Positions 253-20,100 of a stretch of DNA of 25,768 bases are shown here, piece by piece. Below the pieces are notes generated by a model. It had not been told where the DNA came from and did not search any database. It worked only from the letters and a program-made list of their open reading frames with translations. This DNA comes from a virus. Position 1 is the first letter of the stretch; each line of letters starts with the position of its first letter. The stretch is from the IMG/VR virus record IMGVR_UViG_3300042890_001614, positions 1 to 25,768 of that record; one strand, given 5' to 3'. A program made the translations under genes and the position numbers.

Positions 253-2115
253 ATGGCAACTAGCAGGCAGAGCGTTAATGTAACAGAACTTGACTTTGAT
301 CAGATTAAAAAGAATCTGATTACATATTTCTCTGATGTCGATTCACCATTTAAAGATTGGAATTATTCTGGTTCTGGTCTGAATGTGCTATTAGATATGC
401 TGGCTTATAATACTCATTATAATGCTGTTCTGGCTCATATGTCTATTAATGAATCTTTTATCGATTCAGCTCAACTTAGATCCTCCGTTGTGTCCAATGC
501 CAAACTTCTTGGTTATATTCCAAGCAGTAATTCAGCTCCATTAGTAACCGCAACGGTATCTTTTATTCGTTCAGCTGAGGGTGAAGCAGGTTCAATCACA
601 TCGATTGCTTTACCTAAAGGATCATCGTTCATTACGAAATTGAATGATAATTCGTACACATATGTAACTTTAGATGAAGAAATTCTACCTTACGATTCTG
701 GAACTGGTAAATTCACTAAGCTGATTTCTCTATATCAAGGATCACTTGAAAAGAAAACATTTCAGGTTAATAATGTCAATGCGAATAATGCTTATCAATT
801 AGATGATACAAACATCGATTTGAATACAATGATTGTAAAAGTATATGGAACTGGTAATACATCAGAGGCCGAAGTCTTTACAAAATTCACGGATATTTCT
901 GCTGTGGATGGTGACTCTGCGATATATTCGATTGCAGAAAATTCTCTGGGTCTGTATGAGATCAAGTTTGGTAACGGCATCTTTGGTAAGAAGCTGAACA
1001 ACCTGAGTCGAATCGAAGTTGAATATTTAAGCACTGCTGGTTCTGCTTCTAATGGAGCAACTACTTTTGGATTCATGGATGCGATTCCAACTTATGTTAC
1101 TTCAAATCCATCCATCGTTCCTACCGCTTCCTCGTCTGGTGGTAACATGAGAGAGTCTATTGATTCGATTCGTAACAACGCTCCTCTTTCATTCATTACT
1201 CAGAATCGTGCTGTCACTGCCGATGATTACAAGACTCTGATCTATAAGAACTATGCTTATGCTCAATCGATTTCGGTCTGGGGTGGTGAAGATAATGATC
1301 CTCCACAATATGGCAAGGCATTCATTTCGATTAAGCCATATGACCCTCAGTTGTTCTTGACTGCTTCTCAGAAAGTTGAGATTAAGGAGATGTTAAAATA
1401 CAAAAAGGTTCTTTCTATTATTCCAGAATTAGTTGATCCAGAGTATATCTACATCACTTTAGATGTTCTCTTTAAGTACAATAAAAATGCCGTGAATGTT
1501 TCTAAGGGAGAACTTGAAGCTGGTGTCCGATCAGTTATTTCACAATACAATGTGGCTAACCTTGAATCATTTAATGGCGTATTCCGCCAGTCTGCTTTGT
1601 CAAGACAAATTGATACATATTCTCCAGCTATTCTGAACTCATTAATCCGAGTGTTTGTCTCAAACACGTTCACTATTGATCCAGAGAATCCACTCAAGAC
1701 TACAATTAAATTTGGAACCTCTCTAATTGCAGATCAAGGTCACGTAATTGTCGGAGCAACACCATGGGTTTCAAAGGGAGTCAATATCTATCTTGGTGAT
1801 GAAGAAGGCCCAACTACTTCGACTAGAAATATCTACACATATTATATCCAAGATTCCGAAAGAAAAAAGCTTGCTTATTCTGTTGGTTCACTTGATATGA
1901 AGACTGGAGTTATGGTATTGGAAGCATTTTATGCTGACTATCTTGTCAATGTAACTCTTGATTTAATTCCAGATTCTAATGATATTGCTCCTAATAAGAA
2001 CCAGCTTCTGATTATTAAAGATAATAATGTCAATGTGTCTGGCGAGGTTGATGCCATCGCGGTTGGTGGTTCAAGTCGTTCAGTTGAGTATGTAACATTC
2101 AAAAGAGATAGGTAA
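253..2115 (+). CDS. 6: gp6-like baseplate wedge protein (Baseplate J family)
   Basis: This 620-residue protein is close in length to T4 gp6 (660). The N-terminal region LDFDQIKKNLITYF followed by GSGLNVLLDMLAYNTHYNAV (residues 14-59) is the signature of T4-like gp6, as is the following helix with RSSVVSNAKLLGYIP. Around residues 235-270 the segment NGIFGKKL...VEYLSTAG looks like the baseplate J core. NAPLSFITQNRAVTADDYK (about 309-327) is the conserved segment that follows it. In T4 the gp6 dimer forms the inner ring that holds the wedges together around the hub. The ATG at 253 follows the gene 25 stop by 6 bases. No Shine-Dalgarno motif is visible upstream, only an A/T-rich run. The stop TAA is 2 bases before the next ATG. 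Confidence 0.92.
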   Translation: MATSRQSVNVTELDFDQIKKNLITYFSDVDSPFKDWNYSGSGLNVLLDMLAYNTHYNAVLAHMSINESFIDSAQLRSSVVSNAKLLGYIPSSNSAPLVTATVSFIRSAEGEAGSITSIALPKGSSFITKLNDNSYTYVTLDEEILPYDSGTGKFTKLISLYQGSLEKKTFQVNNVNANNAYQLDDTNIDLNTMIVKVYGTGNTSEAEVFTKFTDISAVDGDSAIYSIAENSLGLYEIKFGNGIFGKKLNNLSRIEVEYLSTAGSASNGATTFGFMDAIPTYVTSNPSIVPTASSSGGNMRESIDSIRNNAPLSFITQNRAVTADDYKTLIYKNYAYAQSISVWGGEDNDPPQYGKAFISIKPYDPQLFLTASQKVEIKEMLKYKKVLSIIPELVDPEYIYITLDVLFKYNKNAVNVSKGELEAGVRSVISQYNVANLESFNGVFRQSALSRQIDTYSPAILNSLIRVFVSNTFTIDPENPLKTTIKFGTSLIADQGHVIVGATPWVSKGVNIYLGDEEGPTTSTRNIYTYYIQDSERKKLAYSVGSLDMKTGVMVLEAFYADYLVNVTLDLIPDSNDIAPNKNQLLIIKDNNVNVSGEVDAIAVGGSSRSVEYVTFKRDR

Positions 2116-2117
2116 TA

Positions 2118-4247
2118 ATGCTATTAAGTGTCGCCAATGCAAGCTCTCCTCGTAATGTTGAGAGTGCAAAATTAACTCAGTTGTTACCAGAGAATATTCA
2201 AAGGAATGCTGGTAATCTAATTGAATTCATTCAGTATTATTATGATTATCTGAATACTGTTGGACTTCCTTCGTATGAGATTGCCAGCATTACATCCGAT
2301 AAAGATATTGATAATGAATCTAATCGGTATCTAAGTTCAATTAAGAATTTAATTGCAAGGAGTGTTCCTAATTCTCCAGTATTAGATACCGTTGATCTAT
2401 TCAAGACGATTGTTAAATATTATAATACTCGCGGTTCTGAAGATTCTATTATTACATTCTTCAAGCTGTTCTTGAATGAGATTGTCACCGTTTCTTACCC
2501 TAAAGATAAATTGTTTGATCTATCTTCTGGCGATGGTGCTTGGTTAAAACCGATGCCCGTTGACGGTGTTCCTATTAGCACAACTGGTCCATATATTTTA
2601 GTTGGTAATCTAACTACCGGTTGGTTTAGCGCGAATCCCACAACAAAAATATATCAGGTTGGCACTGTTTATGGAAGACCATCATATCAAGGTCTAACAT
2701 CAGGGTCAGTGGTTCAGCAAGCGGTGTCTTGCTATTTTGATACTTTTTTTAATTGTTGGGTTATTCGTGATGTAATTGCCGGATCTCTTTGGAAATCAGA
2801 TGTGGACGTTGCTGGTTTATTTTCGACACCAGATCTAGCGACTGGGTGGTATCCAGCAGTTGGTTCGACTGGAATACCATATATTACATTATATTCTGGT
2901 TTAGAATTTGCAACATTTCCAGCACCACTAGGAAATGAAAATAATTGGTCTTCTGATTTAGTTATTGATACCAATACCAATACAGTATATAAAGTAAAAG
3001 ATTTAACATTAACAACTGCTAAATGGCAGAAAGCTAAATCTATTGTTGGCCCACCAATAGACAGTATCGTTCATTATTATGATGTAACTGCATATAATTC
3101 AACGCCTCTTGGACATGGAACATCACCATCTACTTATAGAAGTATTTATATTCCACGATTATTTTCAGTTTCATTTACCGATTATTCTAATTATACAGAT
3201 ACTGGTAACCTTTCGAATTATAATGTTATCTTGACGAGAAACAGCATTACTAATACAGTGGTATTATTAGATAATAGGTATGGTGCCAAATGGACTGCTT
3301 CGTTAGGTTTTAACCAATTACAACCTGACCCAGGAACTTTTGGTATTGCTAATATCAGTTTTGTGTTTCCAACTGGCACACGATTACCCAGAGAATCAAC
3401 ATCATATACTACAGATTATCTTCCTGATATTGTAATCGATTCAAATACTGGAATATATTATAAGGGTGTTATTTTAAATAATATTCCAATGACTCCTTAT
3501 TATAATTGGGTTAAATGGACTGTGACTAATGAACTATCAACACAATGGTCATACTTCGACAGTCACGGTTTTGTCTCCGATGAAAATAAGATTCAAGACA
3601 GTTATTATTGGCAGAACTTCTCTTATGTGATTCAGACTGAAAATGATTCATCCAAGTGGAGACAAGATTTCTTGAAGTTTGTTCACCCTGCTGGACTTCA
3701 ACTCTTCACATCATTGCTTCTTCAACTTTCAGAGTCTAATATCTGGACCAATGAATTGATCTATAATGAAGAAACTATTAGTAATGGCACATGGTTAAAA
3801 AATCTTACAACGCCATTTGCTCTATCTGGTGGAACGAATCTTACTTCACTTCATACTCCAAAATTCCAACCAGGTTGGTTCAGAGATTCGGCATTATATA
3901 TCCTTGCACAATATCTTCGTGGTAATGATAATCTTTATAATGCATTTTTTGAATGTGCGCTTCATTTACTTTCTACCAATGAACAGGCTATCTCAAGTAG
4001 GAATTCATATGTAAGAAGTGCATTTAATTCGTGGTTGAAGTTCACTGATGAATCTGAGATTGGTGCTGGATTCTTAGATTTTACCACGAATGATTTCTTG
4101 AATGATTCTTCAGACATTCTAAGATCATATAATATATCATCATTTGTATCAATCGGTAATACATCAATTGGTGCATTCGGGTTAATACTTGAAGATGAAA
4201 GCGGTTTGATAACTGGAGAGAATTCAGGAACTATATTAAACGAATAA
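2118..4247 (+). CDS. tail/baseplate structural protein in the gene 7 position
   Basis: This 709-residue protein has two blocks that I recognise from structural proteins of T4-like marine phages. The N-terminal block (about residues 25-140) contains LIEFIQYYYDYLNTVGLP, a DID pair, KTIVKYYNTRGSEDSIITFF and ends in VSYPKDKLF. The second block (about 490-545) contains IQDSYYWQNFSYVIQ and KFVHPAGLQLF. Between them lie about 340 residues of aromatic, Thr/Gly-rich sequence. That stretch includes two related segments (VIDTNTNTVYKV near 277 and VIDSNTGIYYKG near 442) and two TGW motifs. The position right after gene 6 is that of T4 gene 7, the wedge organiser, but gp7 is about 1030 residues and I see no direct sequence match, so no symbol is given. 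An AGG lies 5 bases before the ATG at 2118 and may be a weak ribosome site. The 17-base gap to the next gene holds a possible late promoter. Confidence 0.7.
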   Translation: MLLSVANASSPRNVESAKLTQLLPENIQRNAGNLIEFIQYYYDYLNTVGLPSYEIASITSDKDIDNESNRYLSSIKNLIARSVPNSPVLDTVDLFKTIVKYYNTRGSEDSIITFFKLFLNEIVTVSYPKDKLFDLSSGDGAWLKPMPVDGVPISTTGPYILVGNLTTGWFSANPTTKIYQVGTVYGRPSYQGLTSGSVVQQAVSCYFDTFFNCWVIRDVIAGSLWKSDVDVAGLFSTPDLATGWYPAVGSTGIPYITLYSGLEFATFPAPLGNENNWSSDLVIDTNTNTVYKVKDLTLTTAKWQKAKSIVGPPIDSIVHYYDVTAYNSTPLGHGTSPSTYRSIYIPRLFSVSFTDYSNYTDTGNLSNYNVILTRNSITNTVVLLDNRYGAKWTASLGFNQLQPDPGTFGIANISFVFPTGTRLPRESTSYTTDYLPDIVIDSNTGIYYKGVILNNIPMTPYYNWVKWTVTNELSTQWSYFDSHGFVSDENKIQDSYYWQNFSYVIQTENDSSKWRQDFLKFVHPAGLQLFTSLLLQLSESNIWTNELIYNEETISNGTWLKNLTTPFALSGGTNLTSLHTPKFQPGWFRDSALYILAQYLRGNDNLYNAFFECALHLLSTNEQAISSRNSYVRSAFNSWLKFTDESEIGAGFLDFTTNDFLNDSSDILRSYNISSFVSIGNTSIGAFGLILEDESGLITGENSGTILNE

Positions 4248-4250
4248 ATA
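4243..4250 (+). promoter_or_regulatory. possible T4-type late promoter (one mismatch)
   Basis: AATAAATA differs from the T4 late promoter box TATAAATA by one base. It overlaps the end of the 709-residue gene and sits 14 bases before the fibre ATG at 4265. With T4 geometry (box at -13 to -6) transcription would start near 4256, giving a 9-base leader. This is weak on its own; its position matches the exact boxes elsewhere in the window. Confidence 0.35.
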
Positions 4251-4264
4251 GTGTATACTAACAT

Positions 4265-7200
4265 ATGAATTTAAAAATATCCCAACTGACCCAGACTAAT
4301 GCGATTATAAGTACCGACTTGGTCACGGTAGTTGATGTCAATGATAAGTCGATGGCTTCATCTGGCACAAACAAAAAGATGACGCTGAAGCAGTTCGCTG
4401 AGTCAGCTATTCCTAGTGTGAGTAATGAAACCATTAATGGTAGTAAGATAATCAGGGGAACAATTACTGCTGATAGATTAGCACCTGGTGTGATTCCTAC
4501 GATCACAAATCAACCGGGCCAAATCGTTGATACCACCAAAATCGACACCGCTCTTGCTGATCTTAATGCACGATTATCCCAATTAAAAAATAAAATTACA
4601 CCTGGAACCCAGTTATACGCTGATGAAATTGGAGCAAATATAATTACAACATTTAATTTATATGCTGATAAAGTAACTGCAAATACTGTGCTCGTAGGCG
4701 ATTTAAGTGCTAGAGTTGGTGAGATTGGCACTCTATATACAAATTTACTTGAGACTGTTAATCTAAAAGCTAGTACTGCCGCAGTTGGTAATTTGTATGC
4801 AACAACAGCTAATGTTGTTTCACTCCTTGCTGATTATGTAAAGACAGATAAGCTTGTTACAGAAATTGCAACTATTAATACTGCTATTATTAAAAAAGCT
4901 ACTATTACTGATCTTGATAGTGCAATCGCAAATATTAATGATTTGAGAGCTGACGTTGCCTCTGTTAACAGTCTAGTTGCTCAAAAAGCTACTTTTACTG
5001 ATCTTGTCACTGAAAGAGGTAGAATCACTACTTTAAATTCTAACTATGTTACTGTAGATGGCAAGTTAACTGCTTCGAATGCTAAAATCGCTAATCTTGA
5101 AACTGACTATGTTACTGTATCTAGTAAGTTAACTGCTGCCGAGGGTGAAATTACAACTCTTAAAACTAAAAGAGTTACTACAGATGATCTTCAGGCTGCT
5201 ACAGGTAGGATCTTAAAACTTGAAAGTAGTAGCATTTCGACTGGTAATTTTGAAGCATATTCTGCTACAATTACTAGACTTGAAGCTGATGTTGCTAAAA
5301 TCGCTAATCTTGAAACTGACTATGTTACTGTATCTGGTAAGTTAACTGCTGCCGAGGGTGAAATTACAACTCTTAAAGTGGAGAAAGCTACTTTAGCTGA
5401 TCTTGTCACTGAAAGAGGTAGAATCACTACTTTAAATTCTAACTATGTTACTGTAGATGGCAAGTTAACTGCTTCGAATGCTAAAATCGCTAATCTTGAA
5501 ACTGGCGTTGCCTCTATTAACACTCTAGTTGCTCAAAAAGCTACTTTTACTGATCTTGTCACTGAAAGAGGTAGAATCACTACTTTAAATTCTAACTATG
5601 TTACTGTAGATGGCAAGTTAACTGCTTCGAATGCTAAAATCGCTAATCTTGAAACTGACTATGTTACTGTATCTAGTAAGTTAACTGCTGCCGAGGGTGA
5701 AATTACAACTCTTAAAACTAAAAGAGTTACTACAGATGATCTTCAGGCTGCTACAGGTAGGATCTTAAAACTTGAAAGTAGTAGCATTTCGACTGGTAAT
5801 TTTGAAGCATATTCTGCTACAATTACTAGACTTGAAGCTGATGTTGCTAAAATCGCTAATCTTGAAACTGACTATGTTACTGTATCTGGTAAGTTAACTG
5901 CTGCCGAGGGTGAAATTACAACTCTTAAAGTGGAGAAAGCTACTTTAGCTGATCTTGTCACTGAAAGAGGTAGAATCACTACTTTAAATTCTAACTATGT
6001 TACTGTAGATGGCAAGTTAACTGCTTCGAATGCTAAAATCGCTAATCTTGAAACTGGCGTTGCCTCTATTAACACTCTAGTTGCTCAAAAAGCTACTTTT
6101 ACTGATCTTGTCACTGAAAGAGGTAGAATCACTACTTTAAATTCTAACTATGTTACTGTAGATGACAAGTTAACTGCTTCGAATGCTAAAATCGCTAAAC
6201 TTGAAACTGACGTTGCCTCTATTAACAATCTATATGTTAAGACAGCAAATATTGACACTTTAATAGCTAATAATGCAGATTTTAAAGGTAAGGTGACAGC
6301 GACTGAGGTTGCTGCTCAAATTATTTCGGCGAAGGAAGCAACATTCGATATTTTATATGCTAAACAATCTGTTGTTGATGAATTGGTAGTTAACAAGACA
6401 ACAGTTAACGATTTAATTGCTAAAAAGGTAACGGCTGATCAAGTTGATACTATCATTCTTAATGCAAATTTAGTTAAGACTGATACATTAATTGCCAAAG
6501 TTATAGAATCAGATATAATTAATAGTAGATATGCTACTATTAATGCTATTCAAGCTGGTGGTATAACAGCTGGTAAAATTGCTGCTGGTAGTGTCGGTAT
6601 TGATCAATTAAACAATACCATTGGTCGCATTGATACTCTTTCTTCAAAATTCATAATGGCTACTAATATTGCAAGTAGCAATTTTAATGGACAAGTCATT
6701 ACAGATGAACTTGGTAATGTTACGAGTATTAATGTTGGTGATAAAGGTTATTATATGGATGCCGCAAGTGGCACGATGATTGTGAATAAACTCGTTGCAC
6801 GCGAAGGTGTTATATCTGGAAAATATATTCAGTTTAATAAGGAGGGTGCATTTACGGTTGACAGTGCTGGTAATCTTGATGTTCAGGTTGACACAAGTAC
6901 AATTGGTATAACTGCTGGTAAAATTTCTATTTTAAAAGTTCCGTCTACATCTATTGTTACTGTAACACAGGATATTAATTATATTGGTGGTTGTAATAAC
7001 ACAATATTCACACCAATAACAACGACGAATGGTCGTTTTCATTACGGCCAAGAAGATTTGCCTGGATTGGCGGGCCCGGCATCACCTGGACCAACCAAAA
7101 GTGATATTATAATGCGTTGGGATATTCTTGCAAATCCAGGTGGTATTGATGGCCCTACATATTTTTCTGGTGGTAAATTGCATAACTTCTCAATGATACT

Positions 7201-8167
7201 TAATTATGCTAATATTAAGAATGCAACCAATGCAACTGGTTTGGAAATAGCTTTATATGTATATTGGTCTGACAATCCAGACACTCTGACTAATAGTCCA
7301 AATCCGACGAAAACATCACTTGGTGTTGTTACTGCACCAGTATTAAAGCTTGGTGATAATACATATACTTTCCCTCCAATTGATCTTCCAATGCCAGAAC
7401 CAACTAATCGCTACTTGCTGTTTGTTCCATCAGTGGTAATTAAAGCAAATAATAACACTTCCAGCTCTTATACTACGTCAGACCCAGGTGTTACTGCGAC
7501 GGCAACTGTTGCTGGCACAGCAACAGCTTGGACAATTACAAAAGCATTATCAGGTAGTGGTTATTCTAATGCCCCCATAGTTACTATTACAGGAGGTACC
7601 AAGACAGTAGTGGGAACTGCCAGTGCTAAATTAGGGCTAACGAATAAAAGTTTCACTATTAGTAATCCTGGTAATAAGGTTTACTCCGTTGCTCCAACAG
7701 TTACAATTACTGGTGGTTCACCAAGTGTAGCAGCAACTGCAACTGCAATCTTAACTTCAGGAGTAGTTACTGGAATCAATATTACTAATATGGGTGATGG
7801 ATACGGTGGTAATGGTGTAGTAGCTACTTTTTCTGGTGGCACCTCTGCTTCTGGAACTGTATCACCTACTGCTGTTTTCAATTCAGATGAATATGCTGTG
7901 AGTACAATTACAAAGCTCGATAATGGTACCTATACAGTGAAACCCACTGCTGCGACACTTAGCGCACCTCCACCAAGAAATGTGTATTCAACAAGTGGTT
8001 TCGATTATGTTGTTAATGGAGTGGTGACCAAGAGCACTATTGGAATTAGAATACCTGCTAATATAACAATGGCATTAACTGTAAGCGCAACAGGCACGAT
8101 TACTTCATTTAGTAATCAATTTTCAAAGTTGCTAATCGCATCAGGAACAAAATTATCAATACCATAA
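4265..8167 (+). CDS. long coiled-coil tail fibre protein with tandem repeats
   Basis: This 1300-residue protein begins with a short adaptor-like segment (residues 1-46, KISQLTQTNAIISTDLVTVV and KKMTLKQFAES) of a type common at fibre N-termini. From about 75 to 760 it is dominated by repeated hydrophobic heptad-like stretches such as ITTLNSNYVTVDGKLT and AKIANLETDYVTVSSKL, which suggests a trimeric coiled-coil shaft. A 184-residue block is present twice with no amino-acid change, followed by a partial third copy. Residues 765-870 (GGITAGKIAAGSVG, YYMDAASGTMIVNKLVAREG) resemble shaft ends of phage tail-tip fibres. The C-terminal 430 residues are beta-rich with GSGYSNAPIVTITGG-type motifs (near 1096-1200), a likely distal binding region. 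The gene lies between the gene 7 position and gene 8, where T4 has no fibre gene. Function as a host-contact fibre is inferred. Confidence 0.8.
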   Translation: MNLKISQLTQTNAIISTDLVTVVDVNDKSMASSGTNKKMTLKQFAESAIPSVSNETINGSKIIRGTITADRLAPGVIPTITNQPGQIVDTTKIDTALADLNARLSQLKNKITPGTQLYADEIGANIITTFNLYADKVTANTVLVGDLSARVGEIGTLYTNLLETVNLKASTAAVGNLYATTANVVSLLADYVKTDKLVTEIATINTAIIKKATITDLDSAIANINDLRADVASVNSLVAQKATFTDLVTERGRITTLNSNYVTVDGKLTASNAKIANLETDYVTVSSKLTAAEGEITTLKTKRVTTDDLQAATGRILKLESSSISTGNFEAYSATITRLEADVAKIANLETDYVTVSGKLTAAEGEITTLKVEKATLADLVTERGRITTLNSNYVTVDGKLTASNAKIANLETGVASINTLVAQKATFTDLVTERGRITTLNSNYVTVDGKLTASNAKIANLETDYVTVSSKLTAAEGEITTLKTKRVTTDDLQAATGRILKLESSSISTGNFEAYSATITRLEADVAKIANLETDYVTVSGKLTAAEGEITTLKVEKATLADLVTERGRITTLNSNYVTVDGKLTASNAKIANLETGVASINTLVAQKATFTDLVTERGRITTLNSNYVTVDDKLTASNAKIAKLETDVASINNLYVKTANIDTLIANNADFKGKVTATEVAAQIISAKEATFDILYAKQSVVDELVVNKTTVNDLIAKKVTADQVDTIILNANLVKTDTLIAKVIESDIINSRYATINAIQAGGITAGKIAAGSVGIDQLNNTIGRIDTLSSKFIMATNIASSNFNGQVITDELGNVTSINVGDKGYYMDAASGTMIVNKLVAREGVISGKYIQFNKEGAFTVDSAGNLDVQVDTSTIGITAGKISILKVPSTSIVTVTQDINYIGGCNNTIFTPITTTNGRFHYGQEDLPGLAGPASPGPTKSDIIMRWDILANPGGIDGPTYFSGGKLHNFSMILNYANIKNATNATGLEIALYVYWSDNPDTLTNSPNPTKTSLGVVTAPVLKLGDNTYTFPPIDLPMPEPTNRYLLFVPSVVIKANNNTSSSYTTSDPGVTATATVAGTATAWTITKALSGSGYSNAPIVTITGGTKTVVGTASAKLGLTNKSFTISNPGNKVYSVAPTVTITGGSPSVAATATAILTSGVVTGINITNMGDGYGGNGVVATFSGGTSASGTVSPTAVFNSDEYAVSTITKLDNGTYTVKPTAATLSAPPPRNVYSTSGFDYVVNGVVTKSTIGIRIPANITMALTVSATGTITSFSNQFSKLLIASGTKLSIP
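4972..6164 (+). repeat. perfect 552-bp tandem duplication plus partial third copy
   Basis: Reading the sequence against itself at an offset of 552 bases, bases 4972-5523 equal 5524-6075 with no mismatch. The match continues from the second copy into a third up to base 6164. At 6165 the third copy has A where the others have G (DGK becomes DDK), and it then decays over about 60 bases. The unit encodes 184 residues. It contains smaller repeats at offsets of 213 bases (AKIANLETDYVTV) and 399 bases (DLVTERGRITTLN). Identity at synonymous sites means the duplication is recent or is being homogenised. Confidence 0.95.
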
Positions 8168-8171
8168 ATTA

Positions 8172-8408
8172 ATGGAAACTAACAAAGTTATGCAAGAAGA
8201 GAATGATTGGATGAGAAATCGTATTCAAAACTATCAGCAATTTAGTGATCGTGATATTGGACATATCTATGATATGATTCAAAGTATATTGGATGCATAT
8301 CCGGTAACACTTAAACCAGATGATCAATTAATTTTAGACCATCGCAAAGCTATTAAAGCTGCGTACCCAAAAGATCAATTCGTTGTTATAAATAATATCA
8401 ATAATTAA
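8172..8408 (+). CDS. small alpha-helical protein next to the fibre gene, unknown function
   Basis: This 78-residue product is not one I recognise. It is charged and probably mostly helical (EENDWMRNRIQNYQQF, RDIGHIYDMIQSILDAY), has a short DDQLILDHRKAIKAAY helix and ends in an Asn-rich tail. There is no signal peptide or membrane segment. The ATG follows the fibre stop by 4 bases and the gene ends 5 bases before gene 8, so it is probably made together with both. Small genes directly after a fibre gene often encode fibre assembly chaperones or adaptors; that role is a guess from position only. The last codons contain an exact late promoter box for the following gene, which constrains the C-terminal Val-Ile-Asn-Asn-Ile-Asn-Asn sequence. 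Confidence 0.7.
   Translation: METNKVMQEENDWMRNRIQNYQQFSDRDIGHIYDMIQSILDAYPVTLKPDDQLILDHRKAIKAAYPKDQFVVINNINN
8387..8394 (+). promoter_or_regulatory. T4-type late promoter box upstream of gene 8
   Basis: An exact TATAAATA lies within the last codons of the 78-residue gene, 19 bases before the gene 8 ATG. With T4 geometry transcription would start at about 8400, an A, leaving a 14-base A-rich leader without a Shine-Dalgarno motif. Confidence 0.6.
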
Positions 8409-8413
8409 AAACA

Positions 8414-10069
8414 ATGTCAGCAATTATCACAGAAACTTTTAGACGGAATAATGCGAAATTATTCTTGGGCGACATCACTACTGGTACAAATAAATATTAC
8501 GTCGGTCTTGGTAAATCAGAAGCATGGCCAACTATTGGTGGTGTTGCTGAAACTTCATCAAACTATAATGTCCCATTACCAACGGGGACAGCTGCTGATA
8601 GAATCCAGACTCTGAACAATCTCACTTCGTTGTTGCGTGTTGAGACTACACGTTCTGGATTGGTTATTCCTAATAACTTGCTGAAGACTGGTAGATCATT
8701 TAAGGCATATTCGCCTTATGATATTAACTCATTTTATCCTACTGGAACTGGCACAATTACATATCCATGTTATTTAAATAATGGTTCTCATATTTACATC
8801 TGTCTTCGTGCTGGTGCCTCTTATGCTACTACATTGCCTGCGAATACAACTTATGGAATCGAAACCACCGCTGATGGATATACTTGGGCTTATGTTGCTC
8901 CTCTAATTGCTGGTGCAAATGCATTCAATACAGAACAGTTTATTCAGATTTCTAGTGATAAATTAACTGGAACACCTAAGACAAATGCTCTTAATGCAAC
9001 TGGTGGTCGACTATTTGGTTACACAGTGGTTAACGGTGGAACTGGTTATGTAAAAGCAAATACACGAATTTATCTTCGTGGAACAACCTCCGCTGGAGTT
9101 GATGTCAACTTGAACTTGAATCCATCAACTCCTGGTGTTGCAGATTCATATACTACATTTAATACTGGAACTGGTACAATCACCTCGATCAATCTTCCAG
9201 CATCGATTGCTAACTGGCCAACGCAAAATCTTAAAAATGCATCTATTGAAATCACTAATTTAAGTGGTGGAGTTGGTACTGGCGCGGTTGCATTACCTAA
9301 TATTGCTCCACCAGATGGCTTCGGATATTCACCATCAGAAGATCTTCCTACTTGGTATGTTGGTCTTGGTGTATCAGCTTCTGGTGACATCTCTGGTGAT
9401 GGTTTTTATATTCCTTATCGTCAAATTACTGTTCTAAAGAATCCAACGATTGTTGGTAATGTCACATTTGCCGATGCTGGCGACAGTGTTACACTACTAA
9501 GTCATGGATTTACAGCTGGTGAACAGATTGAGTTTTCAACGATTGTTAATACAACTGGTATTTCAACCAATACTACATATTATGTTGTAAATACATCTGC
9601 TGATACATTCCAGGTTGCAACATCACCTAGTGGTTCAGCTTTAACGCTAACAAATAATGGTTATGGCACACTTAAATATATCACATCTCTTCCAGCAAAT
9701 GCAAGAGCACTTCAATATTTCCAGTTGACTAGCGCATTGACAGGTGTTACTGATGTCACTGGTCTTAAAATTACAGATGCATCTACAACTCCAGCAATCC
9801 CTTATGGATTCGCTGACTATTACGATTCTACAACACGGAGATTGTATTTCCATCAGAACTTTGAGTCAAGTTTTTCATTGATAAATGCATCAGGACAATT
9901 TAAAATTGTTTCTTCTGGGGGCACACCATCTTCTGCTATAAATTATTCTGGTATCTCTTCAGGTGAGTATGTCACTAACACTGGAGAACTTATCTTTACT
10001 GAAAATCGTAAGTCTATTGCCAGAGCTTCTGCTCAAACTGAAGAAATCAAAATCGTTATCCAATTCTAA
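8414..10069 (+). CDS. 8: gp8-like baseplate wedge protein, enlarged
   Basis: Both ends match T4 gp8 (334 residues). The start ITETFRRNNAKLF...YYVGLGKSEAWP (residues 5-38) parallels the T4 segment with FRTEKMLNFY and FGRSEPW. The end ASAQTEEIKIVIQF parallels T4 MDQTEEINILFTF. Here the protein is 551 residues, so about 215 residues are added internally. One recognisable addition is a beta domain near residues 350-420 (LLSHGFTAGEQIEF, TTYYVVNTSADTFQVA). Another is a GYTVVNGGTGYVKANTRIYL strand motif near 200. In T4, gp8 is a dimeric wedge protein bound to gp7 and gp10; the extra domains probably decorate the baseplate surface. The TAA stop overlaps the next ATG (TAATG), so translation is probably coupled. 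Confidence 0.88.
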   Translation: MSAIITETFRRNNAKLFLGDITTGTNKYYVGLGKSEAWPTIGGVAETSSNYNVPLPTGTAADRIQTLNNLTSLLRVETTRSGLVIPNNLLKTGRSFKAYSPYDINSFYPTGTGTITYPCYLNNGSHIYICLRAGASYATTLPANTTYGIETTADGYTWAYVAPLIAGANAFNTEQFIQISSDKLTGTPKTNALNATGGRLFGYTVVNGGTGYVKANTRIYLRGTTSAGVDVNLNLNPSTPGVADSYTTFNTGTGTITSINLPASIANWPTQNLKNASIEITNLSGGVGTGAVALPNIAPPDGFGYSPSEDLPTWYVGLGVSASGDISGDGFYIPYRQITVLKNPTIVGNVTFADAGDSVTLLSHGFTAGEQIEFSTIVNTTGISTNTTYYVVNTSADTFQVATSPSGSALTLTNNGYGTLKYITSLPANARALQYFQLTSALTGVTDVTGLKITDASTTPAIPYGFADYYDSTTRRLYFHQNFESSFSLINASGQFKIVSSGGTPSSAINYSGISSGEYVTNTGELIFTENRKSIARASAQTEEIKIVIQF

Positions 10070-13000
10070 TGTCGATTACCACTAATAACACAACGTATCA
10101 CGACGATTTTAATATCGCGGATCCAAATTCTGGAAATAATTTTGGCAAGACTGTAGATGATAAGAACTATCTTCGCATTCTATTCAAGCCTGGATATTCG
10201 GTTCAGGTTCGTGAATTAAATCAGATTCAGTCAATTCTTCAGTCACAGATCGATAAATTCGGTTCTTCTGTATGGAAAGATGGTGCTGCTGCTATCGGTG
10301 GTAATGTCTCTTTCGATAAAGACATTCTAAGTGTCGATGTCACATTTGGAGGAGTTGGTTCTACCCCAGTTGATCCTAGTGGTGTCACAAAGATTAGTTA
10401 CGTTGCTACGGTTGGCGGTCTTGCAAAGGTTCTTTACGCAGACGTGATGGGATACAGTGTTCTGAATTCCTCGCTGAAACAATATAGACTTTATGTTCGA
10501 TATTCATCGACCATTATTGATGGTGCGAATGTTATTTCGGTATTCCCGATTGGTGCGACAATTCAAAGTGGTGATACTTCAGAAATCTATGGAACTGCGA
10601 CTGCCGATGGATATGCAGTAGGACTGTTCTTATCTAAGGGAGTGTTCTTCACTAAGGGTTCTTTCGTAGCAACTCCAGATCAAAGAGCATTCTATGATAT
10701 TGCCACGCCAAATACTAATGTTAATGCTTTAGGTGTTCTGAATATCAATGAATCTTATATCACTTATAATAGCGATATTACTCTGGTTGATAATGCGAAT
10801 GGAACACTCAACTATTCAGCTCCTGGTGCTGATCGATATGCAATCAATCTCACTCTAGGATTCCTCGATGCTGGTACAGTTGTTAATGCTGATAATACGA
10901 TTAACCTTGTTACGATCAAAAACTCAGAGGTTGTTCTTGAAGCTAAGATTAGATATACGGATATTGATCGTCAGCTTGCTCAGAGAACATATGAAGAGTC
11001 TGGCAATTATACAGTTGATCCATTTAAGATCGATGTTCGTGAACTTTATAATGACGGAACTAATAACGGTAGATACCTAGGTGCCGAATTAGATAAAGCT
11101 GGATATGAAGTTCCAATCTCTGTTCCAGACCTTGCTGATGCAAAAACAAAATTCTTCACTGGTATCGAACCTTCGACTGCTTATGTAAATGGTTATCGAA
11201 TTCAATCGCTTGAAAAGATCGGTATCATCGGCGATAAGGCTAGAGATATTTCGGATATTACGCCAGCAGCAACAAGTTCGACTATCGGTAACTATCTGAC
11301 TGGTGTGTTTACTGGATCGGTTCCGTTTCCTGTTGCAACCTCTGTCTCTAATGTTTATAGCCTAAAAGATTCTGGTTCTACTACTATTGGAACTTGCCGT
11401 GTTCGTGCAGTTGAACAATTTGGTTCTTTATATCGTCTTTATATTTACGATATTAAAATTTCAAGTTTAACTAAGGGAATTTTCGATATTGCAAGTGTTA
11501 CTGGTTTTAGCGTTGTATTCACCGTTGATGCTGCTGGAGCATTGCAACTGTCCTCGAATGATACTTCAATCTTTAAGCTTCCTTATGATACAGTTTCGAA
11601 TGTAACTGATATTTCATACTATATCAAGAGAGACTTGAGTGCAACACTTTCTGGTGTTTCATCTTATACATGGACATTGACCGATACAAATGAAACCTTT
11701 GCTGATATTTCAACAGTATTAGTTAAGATTGCAAATGTTACTGTCACACCGACTATTGCTTATGGTTCTGGTGGAACTGATACTAAATCAATTGTTCTCA
11801 CATTTGGATCATCGCAAACTGGTGCTCTTCAGGTTATTGCATCAGTTCGTGTTAAGGCGACTCTTGGTTCTTCAATCAGTGGTAAATCCAAAACTAAGAC
11901 CACTGTCACTAACGAATCTTATACTCCTACGGCAGCGCAAACAGTATTTACTCTGAATCAAGGTGATCTATTCTCACTTGATTCGGTTAAGTTTGGTGTA
12001 ACTTCTGGAACTGCTTTAATCGACTGCGTTGATATTACGAAAGACTTTGTTCTTTCCGATAATGGACAGCGTGATACTTATTACACTAATGGTGCTATTA
12101 CATATAAAGGTTCGTCATCATTTACTACAGCAAATAGAATCTATGTAACTTATAAGTATAATGCTCATGGATCATCTGCTTATCAATTCTTTACGGCTGG
12201 TTCATATCAAGTAGCCGGTGGTTATTCTTATAGTGATATTCCATCATATAAGGGAACTCGTCTCTCTGATGTAATTGACTTCAGGCCATTGATTCTAGCT
12301 GGTTCTTCTGGAATTTCGATTCCTCAGGTTGATCCATTTAGTCCAATCGAATGCAATATACAGTGTTACTTATCTCGTATTGATAAAGTTATTCTGAATT
12401 CAAATTCAGAATTCTTGATCGTTCGTGGAACACCAGCTGTTTCTCCAGTTGAACCTGATATTGGTGCGAGTGCAATGAATCTTTACACTCTGAATGTTCC
12501 TGCATACACATTCAAGACTTCAGATATTAAGATCAACTATATCGATAACAAACGATATACAATGCGCGATATTGGTTCGATTGATAAACGTATTCAGAAT
12601 CTGGAATATTATACTTCTCTGTCGTTATTAGAGAAGTCAGCAACTGATAAACCTATCTTTGATACTGGTGGTGCAAGATATAAAAATGGCATTCTAGTTG
12701 ATAACTTTGTTGGTCATTCAATTGGCGATGTTTTCAACTCTGCATATAATTGCTCTATCGATAGTGCTAGCCAAGTTCTTCGTCCACACTTTAAGACACA
12801 GAATATCGATCTTGTTAAATCAACAGTATTGGAAGATTATTCTAATGTTTCGATCAATGAGAACACGATTACACTTGCATTTACTGAAGCAGAGTTGATT
12901 TCTCAACAACTCGCTTCTGAGACTGAATCTGTTAACCCATATGAAGTTGCAGCATTCATCGGTGATGTTAAATTAACACCTGCTACCGACGAATGGATTG

Positions 13001-15183
13001 AGGTAACAACTCGTCCAGATGTTATTATCAATGAAACTGGTGCTTATGATGCTTTTGTTCATCTCGCTGAAAGCACAAATGTTCTAGGGACTCAATGGAA
13101 TAACTGGCAGACTTCATGGACTGGTGTGAATACATGGGATGTTAAACGAAAGAAGAAACGCAGTTGGTGGCGAGGTGGTTCATTCATGCAACCTGGTCAT
13201 GCTTCTCAGACGCTCACTCAACAAGTTCGCACTGGAACAACTACTACTCTTGGTTTCACGGATGTTCAAGAAAATACTGGAGAAAGGATCATTGATATTT
13301 CCTTTATTCCGTTCATTCGATCACGTAAGGTTTATTTCAATGCTCGTGGATTAAAACCAAACACTCAAGTGTTCCCGTTCTTCGATGATATTGATATTTC
13401 TCTATATTCGATGCCGGTCTTAGATGCTGACTATATTCAGTTTGCAGACCGTACTGATACTAGAATATATACTGGATTGTTACCTGGAACTGCTGGTAGT
13501 CTTTCAGCTGTTGGTATTACTTCAGCACCGATTATTACTGATTCCAATGGATCAGTTAAGGGTGTGTTTACAGTTCCGAATAATAGTGCGCTGAAATTCA
13601 GAACTGGAACACGTAAGTTCAGATTGACTGATTCCGTTCGTAACATTCCGACTGAAGCCACAACATTTGCTGACTCCAATTATATTGCTTCTGGTTCGGC
13701 TGAGACTAGGGAAAGCACGATCATCTCTACTCGTACACCAGAATTCAGATATAATGCAGTAACTGATAGCAGAACTTTGCTTTCGCCTGTTACTACAGCA
13801 TGGTATGATCCATTGGCTCAATCGTTCATTATCGGCAATATTCCTTCTGGAATCTTTGCTTCTTCGATTGATCTGTATTTCAGCTCTAAGTCTTCGTCAA
13901 GTATTCCAGTCTCAGCCCACCTAGTGATTGTTGAGAATGGTATTCCAACTCAAAGAATCGTCCCGTTCTCTAAAGTCATGCTGAATGCTTCTGAAGTTTC
14001 AACTTCAGAAAATGGTTCTGTAGCGACTAACTTTGCATTCTCTGATCCAGTTTATCTGGTAGCCGGTGCTGAATATGCGATTGTCGTAATCTCTAATGAT
14101 CCAAACTATCGTCTCTGGGTTGCAAAACTTGGTGGAACCGATGTTATTACGAACAAGAAGATTGATAAGAATGTTTATGCTGGCGTGATGTTTATGTCAC
14201 AGAATGCTTCTACATGGACACCGGATCAAAATCGTGACCTTAAATTTAAGATTAACAGAGCAGTGTTCACGACTGGTTCTGGTTCTGCTAAGTTTAATTC
14301 TCTGTTATCCACTGGAGTTGAGAGTGTAACTGTCACAGTTCCTGGTTCATACTCATCTACTCCTATAGTGCTCTTTGATATGCCTAGTGAATCATGGGGT
14401 GTTCGAGCAGAAGGGACGGCCACGATTAATCCGATTAACGGAGCAATCACATCGATCACCGTGACCAATAAGGGATCTGGTTATACAACCGCGCCTAATG
14501 TTAAGGTTTCAACAGTAACTGTTGGAACTGGCAATCTACTGACTGTTCCTATCTCAACATTCAATCTGACTCAACGATCAACTGAAGTTTCAGATACCTT
14601 TATCTCAAACTCTCTGTTGATGTATAGTAATTCATATGCTGTTGATAATAACGAGAACTATGATATGGATATGGTTTATACTGCTTCGGCAGCTGGAAAT
14701 TCGCCTATCTTAACATCGACATTATTTTCTTCTAATGACTATGTTTCGCCAGTGATCGATCTTGATAACATCTCTTTACTTACTATTGAGAATGAAGTCA
14801 ATAATGATATTACGAATGAGACAACATTAGATGCTGGTAATGCAAAGGCTAGATATATTACACGACTTGTTGAATTGAATAATCCAGCAGATTGGTTGAA
14901 TATTTACGTTAATGTTAATCTTCCTACATCAACTACGAATATCAAAGTTTATGCCAAGTTCAAGTATTCGCCAACAGATTCATCTGGATGGAATTTAATT
15001 GAACCAACATTCCCTATCGCGCTATCATCTAATGATGAAGATTATAATGAAGTTCAGTATGCTTGGACACCAACGACATCTGCAAAAGCATTCGTTGGCT
15101 TCTCTGTCAAGATCGTTATGACTTCCGATTCAAATATTAACATCCCAACGATTAGAGATTTCCGAGCAATCGCAACTACTTAA
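10069..15183 (+). CDS. giant DUF4815-like baseplate/tail structural protein
   Basis: This 1704-residue protein starts with the pattern YHDDFNIADP...NYLRILFKPGYSVQVRELNQIQSILQSQIDKFGSSVWKDG (residues 10-72, given here in broken form), typical of DUF4815 proteins of T4-like marine phages. Further blocks seen in this group are YTMRDIGSIDKRIQNLEYY near 830, ESVNPYEVAAFIGDVKL near 950, WNNWQTSWTG near 1010, KVYFNARGLKPNTQVFPFFD near 1087 and WYDPLAQSFIIGNIPSGIF near 1245. A short basic stretch, KRKKKRSWWRGG, lies near 1025. A GSGYTTAPNV motif near 1470 is related to motifs in the fibre. The place after gene 8 is that of T4 genes 9-10, so a role at the baseplate rim or in fibre attachment is likely, but direct homology to gp9 or gp10 is not visible. 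Translation is coupled to gene 8 by the TAATG overlap. Confidence 0.82.
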   Translation: MSITTNNTTYHDDFNIADPNSGNNFGKTVDDKNYLRILFKPGYSVQVRELNQIQSILQSQIDKFGSSVWKDGAAAIGGNVSFDKDILSVDVTFGGVGSTPVDPSGVTKISYVATVGGLAKVLYADVMGYSVLNSSLKQYRLYVRYSSTIIDGANVISVFPIGATIQSGDTSEIYGTATADGYAVGLFLSKGVFFTKGSFVATPDQRAFYDIATPNTNVNALGVLNINESYITYNSDITLVDNANGTLNYSAPGADRYAINLTLGFLDAGTVVNADNTINLVTIKNSEVVLEAKIRYTDIDRQLAQRTYEESGNYTVDPFKIDVRELYNDGTNNGRYLGAELDKAGYEVPISVPDLADAKTKFFTGIEPSTAYVNGYRIQSLEKIGIIGDKARDISDITPAATSSTIGNYLTGVFTGSVPFPVATSVSNVYSLKDSGSTTIGTCRVRAVEQFGSLYRLYIYDIKISSLTKGIFDIASVTGFSVVFTVDAAGALQLSSNDTSIFKLPYDTVSNVTDISYYIKRDLSATLSGVSSYTWTLTDTNETFADISTVLVKIANVTVTPTIAYGSGGTDTKSIVLTFGSSQTGALQVIASVRVKATLGSSISGKSKTKTTVTNESYTPTAAQTVFTLNQGDLFSLDSVKFGVTSGTALIDCVDITKDFVLSDNGQRDTYYTNGAITYKGSSSFTTANRIYVTYKYNAHGSSAYQFFTAGSYQVAGGYSYSDIPSYKGTRLSDVIDFRPLILAGSSGISIPQVDPFSPIECNIQCYLSRIDKVILNSNSEFLIVRGTPAVSPVEPDIGASAMNLYTLNVPAYTFKTSDIKINYIDNKRYTMRDIGSIDKRIQNLEYYTSLSLLEKSATDKPIFDTGGARYKNGILVDNFVGHSIGDVFNSAYNCSIDSASQVLRPHFKTQNIDLVKSTVLEDYSNVSINENTITLAFTEAELISQQLASETESVNPYEVAAFIGDVKLTPATDEWIEVTTRPDVIINETGAYDAFVHLAESTNVLGTQWNNWQTSWTGVNTWDVKRKKKRSWWRGGSFMQPGHASQTLTQQVRTGTTTTLGFTDVQENTGERIIDISFIPFIRSRKVYFNARGLKPNTQVFPFFDDIDISLYSMPVLDADYIQFADRTDTRIYTGLLPGTAGSLSAVGITSAPIITDSNGSVKGVFTVPNNSALKFRTGTRKFRLTDSVRNIPTEATTFADSNYIASGSAETRESTIISTRTPEFRYNAVTDSRTLLSPVTTAWYDPLAQSFIIGNIPSGIFASSIDLYFSSKSSSSIPVSAHLVIVENGIPTQRIVPFSKVMLNASEVSTSENGSVATNFAFSDPVYLVAGAEYAIVVISNDPNYRLWVAKLGGTDVITNKKIDKNVYAGVMFMSQNASTWTPDQNRDLKFKINRAVFTTGSGSAKFNSLLSTGVESVTVTVPGSYSSTPIVLFDMPSESWGVRAEGTATINPINGAITSITVTNKGSGYTTAPNVKVSTVTVGTGNLLTVPISTFNLTQRSTEVSDTFISNSLLMYSNSYAVDNNENYDMDMVYTASAAGNSPILTSTLFSSNDYVSPVIDLDNISLLTIENEVNNDITNETTLDAGNAKARYITRLVELNNPADWLNIYVNVNLPTSTTNIKVYAKFKYSPTDSSGWNLIEPTFPIALSSNDEDYNEVQYAWTPTTSAKAFVGFSVKIVMTSDSNINIPTIRDFRAIATT

Positions 15184-15418: not shown

Positions 15419-16732
15419 ATGGATACTTCAGAATTTACAGATTTTTCTACATTTACCACTGATGGCGTAGTTGTTTCGGACACGTTTAATGCTTGGCGTA
15501 AAAAAACTAACGGCATTATTAATGCTGTTAATACAAATACGTTATTGCCTAATGGTAGTATTACTCCGGCAAAGTTAAGCACTGGTGGGCCAAGTTGGAA
15601 TTCTTCTGGAGCTATTACTGGTGGAGCTATTACTGCAACTTCATTGAATACTGGCTCTGGAACTATTACTGGTGGAGCTATTACTGCAACTTCATTGAAT
15701 ACTGGCTCTGGAACTATTACCACAACTAACACGGTTAATGCAAATGCACTAGCTATCGGCACAGCCAATAATAAATTTGTGGTATCATCTTCTGGTTCAT
15801 TAATTACTGCTAATTCGATTACTGCAACTTCATTGAATACTGGCTCTGGAGCTATTACTGGTGGAGCTATTACTGCAACTTCATTGAATACTGGCTCTGG
15901 AGCTATTACTGGTGGAACCTTAACTTTGAGTGGTGGCACAGGTGAAATTTTAACAAACGGTGCAGTTAAATCAAATACTCTTGCTATCGGTACAAGCAAC
16001 GATAAATTTACTGTTTCCAACGCTGGCATTGTTACAGCAACTGGAAATATAACTGCTCCTACATTTATTGGAAATTTAACTGGCACTGCATCAGCAGTAG
16101 GAACAAGTGGGGTATCTCCAGCGAGTTTAACATCGGGAGGTCCAGGTTGGAACTCTACTAGCACAACTCTTGGTCCACCAGTAGTGAGTGGAGATTATAC
16201 ATTAAATATTGGCAATTTAGCCAGAAGTAGTGATGGTCGATGCTCGATATTTATGGGTGCAATGAGCGGAGGTGGTAGCGGTACCTCGCTGATAAGAGAA
16301 TCTGGATTAAATTCAGATTTCAGACTTATACAAAATGGTTCAGGTGTAATTAAGTTTGAGACAAATGGTGGCTTAAAGATTAATGCTGCTCCAATTCCAA
16401 ATCCATCAGGAGACGCTCCAATTTATGGAGCAAGAGCGTGGGTTACGTTTTCCGCAAATGGATCATTCATTACAGGAAATAATATAGCAAGTGTTGCTAG
16501 AGCTGCTGGTGTTCCTACTGGGGCATATATTATAACATTTACTACAGCTATGCCAACAACCGCCTTTGCTGCTATTGTAACATCAAATCAGGCAGCACTG
16601 GCAGTTCCTAGTGAAGATGCATTTGGCACAATAGTAAGTCGATCTGTAAATAGTGTTACTGTTAAGTTTTCACGAACAAACACATCTGGGTCTTTCGTTG
16701 ATATGGCTGGAAGTGTAGTTATCTTTTGCTAA
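15419..16732 (+). CDS. short tail fibre protein with 17-residue repeats
   Basis: This 437-residue protein has a fibre-type N-terminus: VSDTFNAWRKKTNGIINAV (residues 20-38) is the TFxxWRxxTNxxI pattern seen in many T4-like phage fibres. Two related segments, TPAKLSTGGPSWNSSG (near 48) and SPASLTSGGPGWNSTS (near 230), bracket a repetitive shaft built of TGGAITATSLNTGSGTI units and two AIGTxNxKFxVSxxG segments. The last 120 residues (ARAWVTFSANGSF, ASVARAAGVPTGAYIITFTT, AMPTTAFAAIVTS) form a small beta domain found at the ends of many phage fibres. The protein is probably trimeric and on the particle. The stop codon is immediately followed by the late promoter box of the next gene. Confidence 0.8.
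   Translation: MDTSEFTDFSTFTTDGVVVSDTFNAWRKKTNGIINAVNTNTLLPNGSITPAKLSTGGPSWNSSGAITGGAITATSLNTGSGTITGGAITATSLNTGSGTITTTNTVNANALAIGTANNKFVVSSSGSLITANSITATSLNTGSGAITGGAITATSLNTGSGAITGGTLTLSGGTGEILTNGAVKSNTLAIGTSNDKFTVSNAGIVTATGNITAPTFIGNLTGTASAVGTSGVSPASLTSGGPGWNSTSTTLGPPVVSGDYTLNIGNLARSSDGRCSIFMGAMSGGGSGTSLIRESGLNSDFRLIQNGSGVIKFETNGGLKINAAPIPNPSGDAPIYGARAWVTFSANGSFITGNNIASVARAAGVPTGAYIITFTTAMPTTAFAAIVTSNQAALAVPSEDAFGTIVSRSVNSVTVKFSRTNTSGSFVDMAGSVVIFC
15611..15917 (+). repeat. 51-nt repeats in the short fibre gene
   Basis: A 51-base unit encoding 17 residues (TGGAITATSLNTGSGTI type) occurs in two clusters: 15611-15718 and about 15818-15917. They are separated by a non-repeat segment of about 100 bases that encodes the first AIGTANNKFVVSSSG block. 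Within each cluster copies differ by only one or two bases (for example GGAACT against GGAGCT), so copy number could change by slippage or recombination without breaking the frame. Confidence 0.9.
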
Positions 16733-17140: not shown

Positions 17141-20100
17141 ATGATAGATACAATTATTCTTAAAAGATCTTCCACACCGAATAAAGTTCCTTTAATCTCG
17201 GATTTAGTATTTGGAGAAGTCGCGTTAAATTATGCCGACGGTAGATTATACTATAAAAATGCTAATAATAATATTAGTCAATTAAATCCAATACTCACTG
17301 GAGCGGCGTCATCTATTTCTACTGAAAACTTGACGTCATCAAGAGCATTGGTGTCAAATGCGTCCGGTAAAGTTGCAATATCAAATGTAACTTCTGATGA
17401 ATTGGGGTATTTATCTAGTGCCACTTCGAATATACAAAATCAACTGAATAACAAAGCAAACCTTGCAAACCCAACATTCTCTGGAACAGTAGGTGGTATC
17501 ACAAAGTCAATGGTTGGCCTGAGCAATGTAGACAATACGAGTGACCTCAATAAACCAATATCTACTGCAACTGCGACTGCATTAAACCTTAAAGCAAACC
17601 TTGCAAACCCAACATTCTCTGGAACAGTTAGTGGTATCACAAAGTCAATGGTTGGACTGGGCAATGTAGACAATACAAGTGACCTCAATAAACCAGTGAG
17701 TTTACTGCAGCAACAAGCATTGGACCAAAAGTCCAATAACGTTATTACAACTTTTACTCCAGTTACAACAGGTTGGTATAGAATTATTCAACACACGTCG
17801 GTTATTGGGTGTGTGTTAAGAATAACATCAAACAACGAGACTGAGGAGCGCACAACCGATGCGGAAGTAAGCATACATGTTGACAAAGATACGCGGGGCG
17901 TCATGAATCAGACACGACACAGCGCAAGAAAGGGCGGTCATGTTAGTATGCTTAGAGTTGCGCGAAATCAAAATGGTTTTGTTGTAGTCGATATTAATGT
18001 ATCAACTGGAGGAACTCAAATTACCCTTGAGGCAGAAGGACTATTGTTTCCAGGATTTGTGCCAACAATTTCTCGGTTAGTTGATCAAAACATAACCGAC
18101 AATGAAACAAATTTGGTTGATGACCTACCTCTTGCCAATGGTTTGCGATCAACTGGACAAATAGCATCGCACCTTGGATCATCCCGCGATCCTGGCACAT
18201 CCCTTTCTATTGCAGGACGTGCTGGATATTTGCATGGGTTGAATTTAACAGCAGGTAGTCCTCGATTTACTGGTGCATCTGATCACTTTCATTTGTTTTT
18301 TAACGGAGCCTCTGGTGCAGGCTCTGGTCAGAGAACTGCACAAGGTGGTAGTTCATGGAATAGTTTTCAAATGCAAAACTCAAATTCCACGCTGACCAAT
18401 GAAATTTTCCTTGGTGGTGTCAATTCATTCTTTTATGGCGAAAACGAGTTTGCACCTGAAGTTAATGGTGTAAGTATCAAATATGGCATTTCGACCGACC
18501 GAGTTGAAACAACTGGGAGTGGAGATGGGTCTGGATATCTTGGTCCAGTTGCTCCAGATTTCACAGCAGAAGTTGATTTTTGGTTTACATCTGATACTGG
18601 ATTGCCAGAAGCAAATGTAACAATTATGGCAAACTTTCCGACTGGAGTTGCCGGAATTTCAGCTGCAATTTTACCTGGAATAGTTTTGAGTAAAACTTTA
18701 ATTGCAACAGTTCCTGATGGAACTACAAACAAATGGAGACTGCGTGTAAAACTTTATGGCCTAAACGCAATTGAATGGAACAAAAGCCAGGCCACGGCAT
18801 TTTCTCCAAGTGTAGTTTGGCGTCTATCAACTACGCCAAATGCGGTGGCAGGAAACCAAAGTTTGGCGGTGCATCCTACACGAAGAGATAAAGTCATTGC
18901 TACATTTAACTCCCCTCACGGTTTATTTGTAGGACAGGTGATGGTATTGCGGCTTGCAACACAAACATGGGGCATATCAGCTGGAAGTTATTCTGGTTGT
19001 ATAACAAAAATTATATCAGCGAATTCATTTGAAATGAAGGTTGGTATTGTTAGACAAGAAAATCCGTTTGAAGCCAGTGCACGAGAGTACCTGTCAACAT
19101 ACAGTGGTCTACCATCAAACACATTGCGAGTTCCTTCGCATAACTTTAGCGATGGAGAAGCTGTTCGAGTGCGGGCAATTGGTCAACTTCAAACTGGGTT
19201 ATCTGAAAATACAACCTATTACGTGAAGAGACACTCCAGCCAGCCGGCACATTGGATTCAGCTATTTAATAATCAAGCACTAACAAACCTGGTCACCTTT
19301 ACAAGCACAAACAAATTTGGTATATATACCATTTATACTGAGGCCTACCCGGCTCCCTTAGCAGCTGACAACTGGTCAATTCATCGCGGCAATCGAGATC
19401 CTGTTCACCAGCAGACCATTTCCGATGTCGGCTGGAGAATGAACCGCAATGTATTTGGTGATCGGCGTGGACTTGCAGCCGGAACAATTGCGCAAGTCAC
19501 ACTTGGTGGGCTGTGTGATATTCCTTATTGGATAACTGGCTCATTGGCAGCTGGATTTAATTCTTCGGCTGAAGCTGACTTTTCATATTCGCTTGGAAAA
19601 GACTTGCGCAATGTAACACCAGAATCAGTTGAAATTGGCGTAGATAACTCCTTTAAATTAAGAGTAACAACAAATAAAGCATCACTAATAACAAGTGGTG
19701 TTGAGTCGCAATTAATAACATCTTTACCTACTGGAGCAACAATTTATGTTGATTCTGGTGCGGGTGTTGGTACAGATACTAGAACCTCACTTAGTAAGTA
19801 TGATTTATTCAAACCATTCGCCACTATTGGCGAAGCAATGGCTGCATCTGCTACTGGAGACACAGTCCGTGTTCGTGCTGGAACCTACTCGATCACAAGC
19901 ACGATCAATCTTAATGACGAAGGAAACCTGCATCTTGAAGAGGGCGTGGTTGTAAACTGTAATGTTGCTAACGCACCCGTTTTCACTCTATCGGTTGGTC
20001 AATCCAAAGTAATCAGTGGAGGTGGTCAGTTCAATATTTTAGGATCAACAACCAAATTCTGGCAGCAGTCTGGTGGCACAACTTCCAATCAACTGTGTTC

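Follow-up and report, generated by a model that had tools for sequence, protein, structure and literature searches.

The question raised by this locus is how a probable tail-fibre gene came to hold two identical copies of a 552-nt segment, and whether this repeat serves as a length switch for the fibre, as the initial annotation had suggested, or entered the sequence during assembly. The window (the whole stretch of DNA analysed, 25,768 bases) is one complete IMG/VR virus record, which we take as a metagenome assembly, and its source is a virus of bacteria with a T4-type baseplate operon. According to the ORF list and Pfam/PHROG matches, the end of a gp25-like gene is followed by gp6-like and gp7-like genes, the fibre ORF, a 78-aa ORF, a gp8-like gene, a gene for a 1704-aa DUF4815 protein, and fibre-like ORFs (Table 1). 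The names gp25 and gp7 follow from gene position and from the annotation of neighbouring genes in other phages. By gp6, the nearest isolate is Methylophilales phage Melnitz (35%). The nearest record, L002, reaches 94% for the gp6 protein and 88.8-89.4% for the DNA across two aligned stretches; it stops within gp7 and thus gives no information on the fibre. The 78-aa ORF could encode a fibre accessory protein. A scan of positions 4000-8600 for promoters and terminators returned nothing usable.

Table 1. Positions of the features discussed (window coordinates, except for the last row).
Feature	Coordinates	Strand	Basis
gp6-like gene	253-2115		
gp7-like baseplate wedge gene	2118-4247	+	Pfam Baseplate_wedge 6.6e-10; PHROG baseplate wedge subunit; name gp7 presumed from position
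Probable tail-fibre (adhesin) gene, 1300 aa	4265-8167	+	ORF list; PHROG/Pfam neighbours; L098 slot and N-terminal domain
Proposed baseplate anchor (N-terminal domain, residues 1-50)	4265-4414	+	Similarity to L098 and L082 proteins
Predicted alpha-helical coiled-coil shaft, ~residues 90-660	4532-6244	+	Hydrophobic period; AlphaFold2 model
Copy 1 of the 552-nt unit	4972-5523	+	Exact-repeat comparison
Copy 2 of the 552-nt unit, same sequence as copy 1	5524-6075	+	Exact-repeat comparison
89-nt partial third copy, putatively the in-frame sub-repeat of earlier origin from which the duplication started	6076-6164	+	Exact 89-nt run at lag 1104
91-nt junction, C5523 to G5613, separating at least two copies from one	5523-5613	+	Arithmetic from mismatch positions
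Block A, 108 nt, five copies	4998-5105; exact at 5397, 5550, 5949; 106/108 at 6102	+	Repeat comparison
Block B, 61 nt, four copies, one nucleotide varies	5104-5164; also 5317, 5656, 5869	+	Repeat comparison
C-terminal part, ~residues 790-1300, proposed tip	6632-8164	+	Coiled-coil period lacking; higher Gly/Pro content
78-aa ORF separating the fibre and gp8-like genes	8172-8408	+	Weak family matches only
gp8-like baseplate wedge gene	8414-10069	+	Pfam Phage-Gp8 4.8e-6; phrog_438 1.2e-33
L098 slot protein, 802 aa	L098:1893-4301		N-terminal domain as in the window; collagen-like stretch; RCC1 repeats

At a lag of 552 nt, an exact run of 641 nt (4972-5612) defines an array at 4972-6164 that consists of two units of 552 nt and a further 89 nt. 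Past this run, a single mismatch (G at 5613, A at 6165) is followed by another 33 identical nucleotides up to 6198, and no repeated 642-mer was found anywhere in the fibre gene. The two copies match at 552 of 552 positions, with neither synonymous nor nonsynonymous differences across 183 whole codons, and the exact run continues to 6164; the initial annotation, which had described copies identical at every base including synonymous sites and a partial third copy identical for 89 bases, is therefore borne out. The same applies to its statement that gain or loss of one copy changes the shaft by exactly 184 residues and keeps the frame, since 552 equals 3 x 184 and the ORF at 4265-8167 remains open through the duplication. 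An exact repeat of 641 nt is far beyond chance. For the 81 related loci (L002-L082), the longest exact direct repeat has a median of 14 and a maximum of 30 nt, a weak yardstick given that these loci mostly comprise baseplate genes without a comparable fibre. Due to the zero differences in 552 nt, as compared to approximately 11% DNA divergence from L002 in the adjoining genes, the duplication is considered young, in agreement with the recent event proposed before. By the rule of three, the upper 95% bound on the divergence of the copies is near 0.5%.

The 552-nt unit is built up from smaller in-frame blocks as a mosaic, in the order E-A-B-C-B-D-A. Older blocks within the unit are represented by an exact 108-nt match at each of the lags 399 and 153 and, at lag 213, by 84 matching positions out of 85. 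In these blocks the same amino acid is encoded by the same codon, each pair compared showing at most one synonymous difference, and due to this near absence of synonymous differences the array appears to have been turned over recently, and more than once. The lags of 153, 213, 399, and 552 nt are multiples of three, so that recombination events between the blocks preserve the frame. An exact 89-nt direct repeat is formed by positions 4972-5060 and the remnant at the end of the array, at a lag of 1104 nt in its present state. A gene with one unit would still hold this direct repeat, and unequal recombination would convert it into two units plus 89 nt, hence the partial third copy.

The best explanation, to which we assign a probability of about 0.6, is a recent duplication via recombination of in-frame sub-repeats in the coiled-coil shaft of a presumed adhesin of tail-fibre type. 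The recombining partners would have been two in-frame sub-repeats, one on each side of a unit and identical over 89 nt; homologous recombination between them would have left two perfect copies together with the 89-nt remnant. Each copy would add approximately 27 nm to the fibre if the rod is a continuous alpha-helix, with frame and core phase unchanged. The same repeats would allow loss, further gain, or smaller steps at the lags of the older blocks. Fibre length would then be expected to differ among particles, and selection rather than a dedicated switch would decide which length prevails. In kind, the duplication is ordinary.

Among the other explanations, an assembly artefact or miscount deserves most attention, although we regard it as unlikely. 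In this case the true genome would carry one unit, three or more units, or a mix of these, and the assembler wrote two. Short-read assemblers cannot bridge exact repeats of this size, and the copy count is then the assembler's guess. Repeated k-mers fill positions 4972-6164 still at k = 127, 151, 251, and 300, which is longer than short reads; the exact repeat of 641 nt probably exceeds short-read resolution, and thus the copy number of two rests on the assembly. Two copies presumably correspond to the shortest path through such a graph loop in which no edge is left out, and an artefact would show the same frame and the same 89-nt overhang. Furthermore, at small k, strain variants could mimic the C5523-G5613 junction, because block A can be entered from either side. 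The older, non-identical sub-repeats, however, exist whatever the copy count is, and the reading frame is uninterrupted. Had the assembler used a largest k above 108, the length of the longest exact block inside the unit, no loop would have arisen from a genome with one copy, and the loop would argue for two or more copies in at least a fraction of the population.

A dedicated and regulated length switch, i.e., a contingency locus kept by selection for switching, is improbable. The repeats are in frame at all four lags and highly homogeneous, as in a hypervariable locus. With respect to the features of hypervariable (VNTR) loci, tandem in-frame repeats are present, and exposure of the protein is presumed. 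However, only one length is in evidence and ordinary homologous recombination is enough to account for it; a search for inverted repeats of at least 24 nt was negative, and the family matches of the ORFs scanned include neither a recombinase nor a reverse transcriptase. Lacking these elements of a dedicated device, the array does not sustain the length switch considered in the initial annotation; the term is too strong, and a recombination-prone, length-variable shaft fits. That an old duplication was held identical by gene conversion is very improbable, because conversion, despite older blocks A and B being almost free of synonymous differences as well, would have had to be perfect over all 552 nt though the flanking first E and last A kept differences, and a recent duplication is the simpler explanation.

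The recent duplication probably affects the shaft of a fibre, which agrees with the earlier designation of the repeated region. This identity is considered likely on account of a predicted helical coiled coil and of the slot and N-terminal domain common to L098. In residues 90-660, a hydrophobic period of 3.34-3.42 stands out above shuffled sequences, whereas the parts after residue 660 are devoid of it. In a single-sequence AlphaFold2 model, residues 226-662 are predicted to be helical almost throughout, at moderate confidence (mean pLDDT 63); for residues 846-1300, the model could not be used (mean pLDDT 36). A sequence search of solved structures with the fibre protein gave 0 matches at E <= 0.01, and the Pfam and PHROG profiles of T4-type long tail fibres (gp34/gp37) were not matched. 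A match of the shaft to phrog_16267 was rejected as a generic coiled-coil match, with the family search also matching a Bacteroides control genome, and the eukaryotic coiled-coil Pfam matches of the shaft were treated in the same way.

In a tblastn search, fibritin (Wac, neck whiskers) of Dhakavirus-type phages showed a coiled-coil resemblance of 27-32% within residues 223-681, which may be just compositional. Both proteins share a segmented coiled coil, which is predicted in case of the window and accompanied by weak sequence resemblance. Unlike fibritin, the window protein is encoded in a baseplate operon, and outside the coiled coil it has no match, as the tblastn alignment ends by residue 681. 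The fibritin family is not among the Pfam matches of the fibre ORF at E <= 0.1, and no C-terminal foldon domain, which we take to be the defining feature of that family, was found.

In viral_contigs, no relative was detected either with the whole fibre protein or with its residues 821-1060, and an exact 24-nt pattern from the 552-nt unit gave 0 matches. A megablast search of phages returned no close relative of the fibre. The N-terminal 235 aa of the fibre gave one weak match in viral_contigs, to shaft residues, in L096. The corresponding protein of 1500 aa is of another type and a distant coiled-coil relative, with similar motif and period. The searches yielded no relative that carries this shaft in the slot between gp7 and gp8. 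The gp8 query had no match in viral_contigs, nor had the gp6 query in genome_contigs, and the large gene at 10069-15183 led to one distant locus, L082. In a comparison of the fibre with related records, for which 35 of the 80 gp6 loci were taken and the other 45 left aside, matches occurred in 4 of the 35 and were confined to the C-terminal residues 1055-1197. As evidence of kinship these matches were dropped, since the Gly-rich repeat situated there also matches baseplate proteins of other loci.

This Gly-rich repeat (7427-7855) is an observation in its own right. Since other loci carry it in their gp7- and gp8-like proteins, it is regarded as a small domain scattered among baseplate proteins.

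Of the 81 related loci, 55 had a recognisable gp7 as well as a recognisable gp8, and in all 55 the two genes are adjacent, 10-32 nt apart, with no fibre between them. The fibre therefore appears to be lineage-specific, and attachment to the baseplate is presumed. A fibre gene in this place was at first considered unique to the window, which was dropped because three genes separate the gp7-like from the gp8-like gene in Melnitz (L090:16589-19314), one of them encoding a Gly-rich protein of 489 aa, and L098 has one. These cases indicate that the slot is open to insertion. L098 is an IMG/VR record found with the gp7 query, and its genes for gp6, gp7, an 802-aa protein, and gp8 occur in the same order as in the window. 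The fibre shares its N-terminal domain with the L098 slot protein, at 47% over 32 aa (single comparison, E 2e-7), and a 160-aa protein of L082 encoded between gp6 and gp7 has a similar N-terminus (37% over 51 aa, E 2e-4); no match to this domain was found in the three genes of Melnitz.

The L098 slot protein thus resembles the window fibre in its position between gp7 and gp8 and in its N-terminal domain. It differs in length and in having a collagen-like stalk and RCC1-type repeats in place of the coiled coil, with the collagen-like stretch (E 3.1e-5) being below and the RCC1 repeats above the Pfam cut-off. The RCC1-type repeats may form a beta-propeller tip of this putative phage fibre. In the simplest reading, the slot appears to hold interchangeable adhesins in which one N-terminal anchor, presumably bound to the baseplate, is combined with exchangeable stalks and tips. 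T4-type baseplate operons would accordingly contain a modular adhesin slot, where the same N-terminal domain is joined either to a coiled-coil rod or to a collagen-like stalk with an RCC1-type tip. A more far-reaching version, which we put forward as a doubtful speculation, combines exchangeable adhesins on one N-terminal anchor with a coiled-coil stalk that in this lineage acts as a recombination-driven ruler, where nested repeats kept in frame would go on generating fibres at steps of approximately 51, 71, 133, and 184 residues, so that one natural population would carry a spread of reach lengths selected by host surface layers.

For phage T4, Tetart et al. in 1996 reportedly found, going by the title, that duplications of tail-fibre adhesin domains expand the host range. 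These are located in a tail fibre as well, but by the title concern a small adhesin domain, whereas the window duplication lies in the shaft and not in the C-terminal part. The closest precedent is given by Enterococcus phage EfV12-phi1, for which Wandro et al. 2019 (PMC6365445) describe in-frame 1.8-kb tail-fibre duplications, varying in number and gained during coevolution. Among 1,021 gene-spanning long reads of an isolate, 134 showed the original gene, 852 two copies, 32 three, two four, and one five, and the authors state that the mechanism of the duplication's benefit is not known (PMC6365445). The likeness consists in an in-frame tandem duplication within a tail-fibre gene, on the premise that the window gene encodes a fibre. 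The read counts illustrate that a two-copy form can dominate (852 of 1,021), whereas the window is known from one assembled sequence. EfV12-phi1 differs from the window in being an unrelated phage of a Gram-positive host, in its 1.8-kb unit, and in the observed coevolution, as opposed to a unit of 552 nt with an exact seed of 89 nt.

The deposited EfV12-phi1 gene contains no exact repeat of at least 14 nt near the 1.8-kb lag, and the best match at lags 1600-1999 comprises 42 of 60 nt (lag 1866). This weak repeat would fit recombination between domain repeats that have diverged, without demonstrating it. In the literature search, EfV12-phi1 (PMC6365445) was the one clear case among the papers listed, and further cases in print may exist; the passages checked in PMC11210271 and PMC12846349 contain no such fibre duplication. 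If real in single genomes, the window duplication would represent a natural counterpart of one laboratory coevolution experiment, with phages altering a fibre via duplication of internal segments and not by mutation of the receptor-binding tip.

Outside the fibre gene, a 762-aa ORF (21285-23573) situated amid the tail genes contains a subtilase (Peptidase_S8) domain (Pfam E 1.3e-18). It also matches phrog_9158 (4.8e-82), a family of unknown function.

Repeats were also observed in two other ORFs. The fibre-like ORF at 15419-16732 carries in-frame repeats of 51 nt (17 aa) at 15605-15916, with exact runs of up to 58 nt. In a tail-fibre-like ORF of 1192 aa, a 105-nt segment is repeated at a lag of 138 nt with 95% identity (17453-17695). 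Given near-exact in-frame repeats in two further fibre-like ORFs, this virus seems to tend to build its fibres by repeats.
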